From Candidatus Uhrbacteria bacterium (GTDB lineage Bacteria; Patescibacteriota; Patescibacteriia; UBA9934): 35,531 nt of DNA. Where the stretch lies: NCBI GenBank assembly GCA_023246145.1, contig JAHFIZ010000003.1:1-35531 (forward strand), in the 5' to 3' direction. Below the pieces are notes generated by a model. The model was not told the origin of the DNA. It was given only the letters and a program-made list of their open reading frames with translations, and did no database searches. Both the position numbers and the translations under genes were made by a program. Below, one piece after another: positions 16,799 to 20,626 of this stretch. The stretch's first letter is position 1. Each line of letters opens with the position of its first letter.

Positions 16799-17431
16799 TT
16801 AGAGAGCAAAAGTCTGTTCAAGAATCTCGATCGCTGCCTTTGAGGCAACTACTACGGAGTACTTGGCCAAATCTCTGACGTTCAAGCTATGTGCATACAT
16901 GCTGTCCGTCTTTGGCAAGTTCTTCAAAGCCTTGATCATGTTGTTATCTCCGGAAGTGAGGAGCACGAGAGCGGACTTCTTAGCATGCGGGAGCGCCATT
17001 CTCATGTTCGCTGCAAGCTTAGTTTTTGCTTCCTTGAGACCCATGTCTTCAACGGCAATGAACAAATCTTCTCTGAGCTTATCCGTGAGCAACATGGCCA
17101 GTGCCAAACGCTTGGTCTTTTTATTCACCTTCAAGGAGAAATTCTGTTCCTTGTGTGGACCGTGCGTGACACCACCACCAATCCAGATAGGTGAACGGCT
17201 AGAACCGTGACGAGCACGTCCTGTTCCCTTCTGTTTCCATGGCTTTCGTCCTCCTCCGCGCACTTCTGAACGATCTTTTACGTGAGCGTGAATAGCACGG
17301 CTGTTGGCATCCTGAGCGGTGATAACACCGTGGATAACGGAAAGCTTTGGTTCCACAGCAAAAAGCTTGTCGGAAAGTGGAATCATTCCGGCTTCTTTGC
17401 CTTCAAGAGTGTAAAGTTTTACTTCAGCCAT
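16799..17431 (-). CDS. rplD: 50S ribosomal protein L4 (uL4)
   Basis: 210 residues. The tunnel-lining loop is clear (GGGRKPWKQKGTGRARHGSSRSPIWIGGG, in parts), preceded by RAIHAHVKDRSEV and followed by the C-terminal Rossmann-like domain. L4 of Escherichia coli also represses its own S10 operon, which makes it the obvious candidate regulator of the structured leader at 18080-18324 (inference). Its start overlaps the end of rplC by 13 bases. Confidence 0.97.
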   Translation of the reverse strand: MAEVKLYTLEGKEAGMIPLSDKLFAVEPKLSVIHGVITAQDANSRAIHAHVKDRSEVRGGGRKPWKQKGTGRARHGSSRSPIWIGGGVTHGPHKEQNFSLKVNKKTKRLALAMLLTDKLREDLFIAVEDMGLKEAKTKLAANMRMALPHAKKSALVLLTSGDNNMIKALKNLPKTDSMYAHSLNVRDLAKYSVVVASKAAIEILEQTFAL

Positions 17432-18027
17432 ACATTTCCGTCAGTGGTATGAATCGTCACGAGACCTCCGCGAGCTCCAGGAACTGCACCCTTCACACCG
17501 AGAATGTTTCTTTCTTTATCAATGGTGATGACCTCCAAATTTTTCACCGTTACGCGATCTCCACCCATCCGTCCAGCCATGCGCATGCCTTTAAACACGC
17601 GCTGGATGCCGCCGGCTCCAATGGAACCAGACTTACGGAGCTGATCTTTGTGACCGTGGGTAGAAGGGTGACCGCGGAAGCCATGGCGTTTAACAACACC
17701 CTGGAAACCGTGACCCTTACTCGTTCCCGTGACCGCAATTTCGTCTCCAACGGCGAAAGCTTCCACGGAAATAACTGCGCCCGGCTCAAGCGTCTCGCCC
17801 TCCTTCAGGCGAAGCGTGCGCAAATGCGTGAACGCTTCTTTTCCCTGAGCTTTGGCAGGATGCTTCTTTTTACCAAATCCGATCAGCGCTACATCGTGGC
17901 CGGCGTCATCTTTGGTGATGCGGGCAACGGTGCAAGGACCGGCCTCAATAAGCGTTACCGCGACTGAGGTGCCATCCTCACGGAAGGCCTGGGTCATTTC
18001 AAGTTTTGTACCAATGATATATTTCAT
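17419..18027 (-). CDS. rplC: 50S ribosomal protein L3 (uL3)
   Basis: 202 residues. MKYIIGTKLEMTQAF, VTGTSKGHGFQGVVKRHGFRG, the THGHKDQLRKSGSIG segment and MAGRMGGDRVTVKNLEVI are diagnostic. It is the first gene after the structured region at 18028-18334 and the head of the long L3-to-SecY gene string, with spacings from a 13-base overlap to ten bases. There is no strong Shine-Dalgarno before ATG 18027. Confidence 0.97.
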   Translation of the reverse strand: MKYIIGTKLEMTQAFREDGTSVAVTLIEAGPCTVARITKDDAGHDVALIGFGKKKHPAKAQGKEAFTHLRTLRLKEGETLEPGAVISVEAFAVGDEIAVTGTSKGHGFQGVVKRHGFRGHPSTHGHKDQLRKSGSIGAGGIQRVFKGMRMAGRMGGDRVTVKNLEVITIDKERNILGVKGAVPGARGGLVTIHTTDGNVWLK

Positions 18028-18079
18028 AGAATCATGCGTTCATGCCGTAAAAGGCAGTGGAACGTTTCTCTTTTGAAAG

Positions 18080-18111
18080 AAAAAGACCAGAAGTCTTCAT
18101 TGAAGACTTCT
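18080..18111 (-). terminator. Intrinsic terminator/attenuator between rpsJ and rplC
   Basis: A perfect 10-bp stem, AGAAGTCTTC (18111-18102) with GAAGACTTCT (18098-18089), 3-base loop, then GGTC and TTTTT (18084-18080). It lies inside the S10 operon, before rplC, with no convincing promoter after it. Confidence 0.8.
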
Positions 18112-18324
18112 AGCCTGAAGTATCGTGCCCGAAAATCGTTCGGGGACTCGTACCATCAGGTTGTTTTCTCTCAAAGTGTGAATAGGCAATCTCCTCACAG
18201 AACTCCGCACGAAGCTTCGGGAAGGTTTTCCATAAATGGATCTTTCTTTCCGGTTCGCTGTAGGAGGTTTCGTACGGGACTGCGATCAGGGAATTTCTTT
18301 TGAAACTCGCTTATCGCAGGCCCG
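18080..18324 (-). promoter_or_regulatory. Structured leader RNA between rpsJ and rplC, probable ribosomal-protein attenuator
   Basis: The 307 bases 18028-18334 hold no gene, yet read as several strong hairpins on the minus strand. P1: CGGG-c-CTGCGAT (18324-18313) with ATCGCAG-t-CCCG (18286-18275), enclosing GAGTTTC-AAAA-GAAATTC (18308-18291). P2: TCCT-ACAG (18265-18258), then AAC, pairing with GTT-CTGT-g-AGGA (18203-18192). P3: CCTGA (18160-18156) with TCAGG (18118-18114), enclosing CCCGAA (18144-18139) with TTCGGG (18133-18128). A terminator follows immediately at 18080-18111. The position, just after the rpsJ stop and before the main ribosomal string, suggests transcription attenuation, perhaps by L4 or another cluster product. 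It does not match any leader I recognise. Confidence 0.65.
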
Positions 18325-18334
18325 CACAGGCACA

Positions 18335-18691
18335 TTACATTTTTATTTCTACGTCTACTCCGGCGGGCAAGTTGAGGCTCATCAGAGCGTCAATCGTGCG
18401 TTCCGTAGGATTCACGATGTCGATCAAGCGTTTATGGATACGCATCTCGTATTGATCACGGGATGTCTTATCAATAAAGGTTGAGCGGTTCACCGTGTAG
18501 CGGCGGCGATCCGTAGGCAGTGGTACTGGGCCGAGCACACTGGCTCCGCTGCGTTCCGCTGTTTTGATGATCGTAACCGTAGCCGTATCTATGATCTTGT
18601 GATCATAGGCTCGGATCTTGATGCGGATCCGTGACTGTGTGTCAGCGGGCGCTTTTGTTTTTGCAGTTTCAGCCATACGAACAAAGGACAT
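18335..18691 (-). CDS. rpsJ: 30S ribosomal protein S10 (uS10)
   Basis: 118 residues from ATG 18691, or 113 from ATG 18676 ([14 protein letters not shown]); no Shine-Dalgarno decides. The core [50 protein letters not shown] (in parts) and [29 protein letters not shown] is standard. S10 is both a 30S head protein and, in other bacteria, NusE of antitermination complexes. It is separated from tuf by a perfect hairpin and from rplC by the structured leader. Confidence 0.95.
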
Positions 18692-20044: not shown

Positions 20045-20097
20045 GGGGTGACGGGGGCAGATGCGCAGCGTGAGGCCCTAAAAAACCTCAAAAAAAG

Positions 20098-20123
20098 AAA
20101 AAGCCTGTATTTACAGGCCTTTT
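20098..20123 (-). terminator. Terminator of the acidic-protein gene
   Basis: The stem AAAGCCTGTA/TACAGGCCTTT with a 2-base loop is followed on the minus strand by a long T-rich run (to about 20091). It separates the 20125 gene from the tuf promoter. Confidence 0.8.
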
Positions 20124-20124
20124 C

Positions 20125-20589
20125 TTAAACCGCCTCCATGTAAAACTGCTCCTCCCCCGCTTCTTTTTGGGCATTTCTTCGGGCAATAGGCTGGCGCTCT
20201 TCCTCGGCCCGCTCCCCCAATTCGTTGGCGGGATTAGGTGCCACCGGAACCATTTCCGGCTCTTCCATGACCATAGCTGCCATAACCTGTTCCTCAAGGG
20301 CCGCTGGGTCAAACTCCCCTTCTAGCTCCCCCTCTGCCCCGTCATTTGCTTCATCTTGGCCAAAATCCGCCGCTACGAAAGGCGCAGACTCTGAAACATC
20401 CGGAGCAAATCCTTCTTGGTGGTCTTCACTTTTTGCACTCCGGCGAAAGCTTTTGTAATCAAGGAGGCCCTCATACTCCGCAAGCGGCAAAATCACGACC
20501 GGCTCTTTACCGGATGGATCCGTCACAATAAGACGATCCCCCGTCCTTTGCGCTAACTTGAGCAACCGTTCAAATTGGGAATTCTGCAT
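20125..20589 (-). CDS. Hypothetical acidic protein with Phd/YefM-like N-terminus
   Basis: 154 residues. The first 45 (FERLLKLAQRTGDRLIVTDPSGKEPVVILPLAEYEGLLDY, in parts) look like the fold of Phd/YefM antitoxins (repress-and-bind proteins with 'viit-nGkp-vvl-s-eyE-L'). The rest is a long Glu/Ala-rich, probably disordered tail. No toxin gene is adjacent, so a toxin-antitoxin role is not supported. I cannot name its function. Start 20589 is chosen because the promoter's -10 box (20603-20598) lies just upstream, leaving about one leader base. The gene is alone between the fusA terminator and tuf. Confidence 0.7.
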   Translation of the reverse strand: MQNSQFERLLKLAQRTGDRLIVTDPSGKEPVVILPLAEYEGLLDYKSFRRSAKSEDHQEGFAPDVSESAPFVAADFGQDEANDGAEGELEGEFDPAALEEQVMAAMVMEEPEMVPVAPNPANELGERAEEERQPIARRNAQKEAGEEQFYMEAV

Positions 20590-20597
20590 ATGCGGCA

Positions 20598-20626
20598 ATC
20601 TTATGTAGTCAGATGAGGAAAGTCAA
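20598..20626 (-). promoter_or_regulatory. Promoter giving a leaderless mRNA for the acidic-protein gene
   Basis: TTGACT (20626-20621), 17-base spacer, TAAGAT (20603-20598). Transcription should begin within a few bases of ATG 20589, which lies 8 bases after the -10 box. There is no Shine-Dalgarno. Confidence 0.75.

Follow-up and report, generated by a model that had tools for sequence, protein, structure and literature searches.

In Escherichia coli, the S10 operon is controlled by one of its own products, L4, which acts at both transcription and translation, the former by attenuation with NusA, and the L4-responsive leader is described as the 5'UTR of the operon (PMC10931766). The gap between rpsJ and rplC in Candidatus Uhrbacteria resembles that system in that it lies in the same operon, combines a structured leader with an intrinsic terminator and would control the block from rplC on. 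However, as a first-pass annotation of this DNA had already pointed out, the layout is not that of E. coli: there the leader precedes rpsJ, whereas the putative switch described here follows it in 57 of 57 relatives, and the rpsJ–rplC gap is 32 bp in E. coli as against 307 nt here. An L4 leader candidate from Archaeoglobi precedes rplC, rplD, rplW and rplB, with L4 as the proposed ligand, but is archaeal and is rated uncertain by its own authors, and it is by its description that it is likened to the present gap (PMC7247131). In the B. subtilis rplJL leader, which is attenuated by L10(L12)4, a ribosomal protein likewise provokes intrinsic termination within its own leader; that leader is reported to have a kink-turn domain and a defined antiterminator (PMC10931766), whereas no antiterminator is supported here. 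The rimP-leader also has a terminator stem of conserved sequence in a transcription/translation operon, and contact of NusA with its upstream arm has been discussed; as described, it differs in its operon, in its motif GGGc..gCCC and in being without a larger conserved domain (PMC2965389). Finally, the boxA of the suhB leader is a NusB–S10 site that regulates a non-rRNA gene, but it represses translation (PMC5725501), whereas here there is just a degenerate site ahead of a terminator.

Rfam release 15 gave no match at gathering score in the window, i.e. the whole 35,531-nt stretch of DNA that was analysed, and only noise at a relaxed E-value; on 20 related loci its sole match was the 16S rRNA in one of them (L090). 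As far as titles and the openings of abstracts in the open-licence literature reveal, no publication on an rpsJ–rplC attenuator or on a ribosomal leader of Patescibacteria was found. On this evidence the RNA is new in its family and layout, and as a kind, most likely an attenuator under the control of a ribosomal protein, it is known.

Patescibacteria, a large and for the most part uncultured branch of the bacteria, have very small genomes, and to our knowledge little is known of their regulation. We read the rpsJ–rplC gap, with moderate confidence, as a cis-acting attenuator of transcription that answers to a ribosomal protein encoded in the same operon, L4 being the likeliest candidate and L3 a less likely one. 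If so, it would be a feedback switch on the largest ribosomal operon of these bacteria, built from an RNA outside Rfam and placed where tuf and rpsJ lie beyond its reach, and would show how ribosomal parts are balanced.

Setting of the rpsJ–rplC gap

The genes around the gap lie on the minus strand in the order EF-G, a small protein, EF-Tu, S10, gap, L3, L4, L23, L2 and the rest of an S10/spc-type cluster. S10, L3, L4, L23, L2, EF-Tu and EF-G were identified by NCBIfam; downstream of the gap this test covered L3, L4, L23 and L2, the remainder being named by order and size. From rplC to rplO there are 19 ORFs of ribosomal-protein size in the standard order, followed by secY, adk and map (assigned by order and by look), in line with the some 20 downstream genes counted before.

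The gap folds at -113.8 kcal/mol, compared with -78.05 (sd 5.4) in 100 shuffles. Together with the terminator P4 (Table 1), this confirms the earlier observation that the cluster contains, behind rpsJ, a structured RNA and an internal terminator; the interpretation then put on it is partly supported. At least two helices beyond the first hairpin had been predicted, and P2, P3 and P5 answer to them.

Table 1. Features of the rpsJ–rplC gap and its neighbouring genes (window coordinates)
Feature	Position	Strand	Evidence
rpsJ–rplC region, whole candidate leader/attenuator	18028..18334	-	Fold z -6.6; gap of 218-446 nt in 57/57 relatives
rpsJ (S10/NusE), adjoins the putative switch on its upstream side	18335..18691	-	NCBIfam TIGR01049/NF001861 above cut-off
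P1, long stable hairpin following rpsJ; accessory, without sequence conservation	18273..18326	-	Fold; comparable hairpin in 42/55 relatives
P2, putative ligand-binding domain: inner hairpin and closing helices	18199..18267	-	R1 match 18205-18263; covariation; fold
P2 internal loop, 5' half, near-invariant, AAAGAAAGAUC	18239..18249	-	Alignment and fold
P2 internal loop, 3' half, GAAAACCUUC	18221..18230	-	Alignment and fold
Purine element GAGGAG after P2	18191..18196	-	AGGA/GGAG-type element 8-45 nt past core in 47/55 spacers (loose pattern)
Weak boxA-like element, UAUUCACACUU	18174..18184	-	Score 7.4 vs mean 16.5 for rrn boxA sites
P3, hairpin adjoining the terminator	18114..18160	-	Fold only
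P4, intrinsic terminator stem, AGGCUAGAAGUCUUC...GAAGACUUCUGGUCU	18084..18116	-	Terminator scan; 11/11 tested pairs changed on both sides (57 sequences)
Terminator U-rich tail	18076..18086	-	Terminator scan and fold
P5, small hairpin ahead of the rplC start; family-level only	18037..18064	-	Pattern in 9/57 spacers
rplC (L3), first gene past the putative attenuator	17419..18027	-	NCBIfam TIGR03625 above cut-off
rplD (L4), likeliest ligand source by inference from E. coli	16799..17431	-	NCBIfam TIGR03953 above cut-off

The conserved hairpin P2

As judged by sequence comparison, the gap contains a conserved, covarying structure and a conserved terminator in a fixed place, and many relatives leave no space behind P4 in which a promoter would fit. 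L3 was used to search 59 genomes of the order and was found in 58, of which 57 could be judged, one contig stopping short of rpsJ. The first-pass annotation had staked its reading on a comparable spacer in relatives; S10 upstream and a gap of 218-446 nt are present in all 57. One of these spacers, from genome G021 (locus L015), is identical to that of Candidatus Uhrbacteria contig CAITFQ010000065.1.

Alignment around the loop places the P2 core in 55 of the 57 spacers, the exceptions being L040, with a variant core, and L016, with a degenerate one. These two were left out of alignment A1 (55 loci, 53 distinct), in which 12 pairs are formed with 87% of cells paired and nine pairs are changed on both sides. 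Covariation scores 0.388 here, a value reached by 0/500 shuffled alignments, which score 0.140; slid controls do not exceed 0.118. The internal loop, AAGAAAGAUC...GAAAACCUU, is near-invariant: its 5' AAAGA and 3' AAAC stay constant while the flanking helices vary, GGAAG/CUUCC being replaced by UGGAG/CUCCA, GCGGAG/CUCCGU or AUAAAG/CUUUAU.

A class-wide alignment of P2 (A2) was made from 30 of the 57 order loci and 14 others, one of these being the order's L040; L194, with a long loop, was left out, and L018 and L040 are misaligned. Covariation in it scores 0.479, compared with no more than 0.170 in the controls. At least as many pairs with changes on both sides (10) turned up in 41/500 shuffles and at least as many pair types (29) in 266/500, so these two measures lend the class-wide P2 no support, which comes from the score and the pairing.

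Taxonomic range

Genome-wide searches with model R1, built from the order, gave matches in 33 of 285 genomes of the class. Outside the order, 11 of 13 R1 loci (L186-L198) lie between rpsJ and rplC, all 11 with the P2 core, and the remaining two have no ribosomal-protein neighbour; matches without such neighbours (L192, L198 and L219) were treated as chance. Three matching genomes (G106, G248 and G259) yielded no locus in that search, G248 being placed in the gap later via L280. Among 80 named L3 loci from many phyla, R1 was convincing for the Uhrbacteria locus only (E 3.6e-14; next 0.083). R1 failed to pick up three contigs of Magasanikbacteria whose gaps, 313-434 nt long, carry a variant core (AAGAU...AAAAC) but keep the terminator sequence unchanged.

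In a sample of 52 loci from about 45 other families of the class, the gap is 136-765 nt in 51, a few of the upper values being upper bounds (L3 start taken from search coordinates), and 11 nt in one. Model R2 matches 14 of these loci and R3 six others, neither matching the remaining 32; with a permissive script, a terminator-like hairpin was seen in 36 of the 52. In other classes, S10 lies within 1.1 kb in 14 of 20 sampled genomes, at gaps of 5 to 804 nt.

Eight loci from Bacteroidetes-type genomes, mostly Chitinophagales-like (L101, L113, L119, L127, L129, L131, L161 and L163), have rpsJ–rplC gaps of 320-530 nt with no convincing R1 match; these gaps may hold a different leader.

The terminator P4 and what lies behind it

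P4 was placed downstream of P2 by script in 55 of the 57 order spacers, and L014 and L042 have the same stem just below the U-run threshold; in L024 and L058 the script initially chose another hairpin as terminator. Alignment A3 comprises all 57 sequences (56 distinct), with terminator bounds reset by pattern for L014, L042, L024, L058 and L008. In it, 95.1% of cells are paired, every tested pair shows changes on both sides and the covariation score is 0.394 against at most 0.125 in slid controls; the covariation among related spacers for which a search had been proposed is thus found in P2 and P4 alike. The sequence of the stem is also kept, as GGCUAGAAG...CUUCUAGC or CUUCUGGU. A terminator had been placed at 18080-18111; it is present, but that span omits the first five bases of the stem, which is followed by the U-run.

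The distance from the end of P4 to the rplC start ranges from 7 to 130 nt, and is at most 30 nt in 18 of the 57 genomes and at most 20 nt in 11. A distance of 30 nt or less leaves no room for a promoter, so that expression of rplC needs polymerase to pass P4. These short distances argue against P4 being an operon boundary that closes the tuf–rpsJ transcript, with rplC served by its own promoter; the strength of the terminator and the up to 130 nt behind it in some relatives would suit such a boundary, but a simple consensus scan found no sigma-70-like site on the minus strand within the window's gap, in agreement with the earlier remark that no convincing promoter follows, and a promoter ahead of P4 would leave P4 an attenuator. 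We regard this arrangement as very unlikely.

That P4 is kept across the order and has tuf–rpsJ directly upstream would also be expected of a fixed partial terminator, which merely lowers transcription after these highly expressed genes without sensing anything, P1-P3 serving to protect RNA ends. Such a device would leave unexplained the near-invariant P2 loop with its covariation as well as the conservation of the P4 stem sequence, and is considered unlikely. Less credible by far is the release of a trans-acting small RNA from the 3' end of the tuf–rpsJ transcript: a stable, structured RNA with a terminal terminator would fit, but the conserved loop sits paired in a hairpin with no open seed, and its place directly before rplC is kept throughout.

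As a candidate antiterminator, the 3' flank of P2 (GCUUC) paired with the 5' arm of P4 (GAAGC) was frequently the best duplex, yet it was rejected, as GAUU variants retain GAAGC. This pairing is possible in about half of 49 spacers and variants are uncompensated, as judged by inspection; in the scan, six of 55 spacers were without the arm and two more without a duplex.

Ligand and mechanism

Under the attenuator reading, the nascent RNA would fold P2, with its near-invariant internal loop, as polymerase leaves rpsJ. A ribosomal protein of the operon, likeliest L4 and less likely L3, would bind P2 when in excess over free rRNA and so favour termination at P4; tuf and rpsJ would then still be made, and rplC and the about 20 genes behind it would not. 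When the ribosomal protein is scarce, polymerase would pass P4. That read-through is regulated, that a protein is the ligand, which protein it is and the direction of control are what we infer. The ranking of L4 before L3 follows the rules for such leaders, i.e. prior ligand and then closest gene (PMC7247131), and any of the proteins encoded in the operon may be the ligand.

A conserved, covarying RNA before ribosomal-protein genes, as is typical of ribosomal-protein leaders, is found here, and P4 is a predicted expression platform. Resemblance to an rRNA site, which is not required of all members, was not found. Among 30 23S loci none gave a real match to R1 (best E 0.55), R3 had none in 30 23S and 29 16S loci, and a motif scan matched 4 of 59 rRNA loci, at differing places. 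Mimicry by P2 of the L4 site of 23S rRNA, or of the L3 site, was accordingly rejected, as these searches of rRNA from the lineage itself gave nothing consistent for L4 and nothing for L3.

The idea of a leader moved behind rpsJ gains no support, as neither R1 nor R3 matches the E. coli S10 region (L250) and P2 matches no Rfam family; it is therefore not demonstrably the same leader.

A boxA-like site and S10

In this lineage the boxA of the rrn genes is easily recognised, preceding 23S in 26 of 30 loci and 16S in 25 of 29, and a boxA-like site occurs in the linker between P2 and P4. The mean score of the linkers is 1.71, compared with -0.37 in 60 dinucleotide shuffles (highest shuffle mean 1.23). 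In a second control, with 300 column-permuted matrices, none reaches the score of the true matrix and one reaches its count. Putative boxA sites ahead of rpsJ have been reported for a few gammaproteobacterial genera (PMC5725501). It may then be that free NusB–S10 binds the linker site and lets polymerase pass the terminator, so that the product of the preceding gene opens the switch. However, the linker sites are degenerate, with a mean of 4.05 against 16.5 for the rrn sites, only 26 of 55 spacers have their best site within the linker (29 of 55 with a shorter matrix) and P2 is left unexplained, which makes this an improbable account. For the S10 antitermination proposed in the first-pass annotation there is a boxA-like site, and the degeneracy of that site leaves the idea suggestive only.

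A slightly less probable version joins both inputs in a switch that would be old in Patescibacteria, one loop family in the gap reading a ribosomal protein and the neighbouring boxA-like site reading free NusB–S10. If true, S10, made just ahead, would permit the other ribosomal proteins to be transcribed and couple them to antitermination at rRNA. The gap also lends itself to testing how S10 and Nus factors act beside a putative ribosomal-protein switch.

The 16S and 23S genes of the order appear to be non-adjacent, conserved-sequence patterns finding no 16S in the stretches of up to 4 kb that precede 23S in 20 genomes. The boxA upstream of the separate genes is GAWCNTTYACAAYTGAA (23S, L059-L088; 16S, L220-L249), and the 16S leaders have, by eye, a further common element near TGTGTGATTGCAACGTYTATTCC.

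Other elements of the gap

The hairpin first placed at 18275-18324 is present and extends two bases further on each side, as P1. The emphasis laid on it was misplaced: it is absent or weak in 13 of 55 relatives and is the least conserved part of the gap, and P1 was rejected as the key element. Apart from P5, a different hairpin, GUCC..GGACCA, stands just before the rplC start in 7 of 57 spacers, and such small family-specific hairpins are possibly a layer of translational control. A small leader peptide was also rejected: 18 of 57 spacers have an ORF of at least 30 aa that begins close to the rpsJ stop, but its length and offset differ among them.

A second motif in the same gap

In some other families of the phylum, the rpsJ–rplC gap has a second hairpin motif, AGGUUCU...AGAUAACGAUU, in place of the first (L286, L287, L294, L296, L300, L323 and L353-L356), with a covariation score of 0.640 against at most 0.219 in slid controls (10 sequences). 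As an exact pattern it occurs in 4 of 379 phylum genomes, each time between rpsJ and rplC, the reversed control giving none. Both motifs have the loop form 5' RRG-W-UC / 3' GA-W-AAC (W = A or U), the W positions in the order being A/A in 49, U/U in three and U/A in two (n=54). R3, built from the second motif, matches none of 41 first-type loci, so that it is through our reading of the loop that the two are joined and may be supposed to have a common origin.

Other features of the window

The small protein between EF-G and EF-Tu (20125-20598, minus strand; 157 aa) has no NCBIfam match and a weak, sub-cut-off Pfam match to Phd/YefM antitoxins (E 7e-5, 23.0 bits vs 29.8). After this gene behind fusA and just upstream of tuf, a second strong terminator-like hairpin of 14 pairs followed by a U-run lies at 20095-20126 on the minus strand, and expression of EF-Tu may likewise depend on read-through, or on a promoter, at this hairpin.
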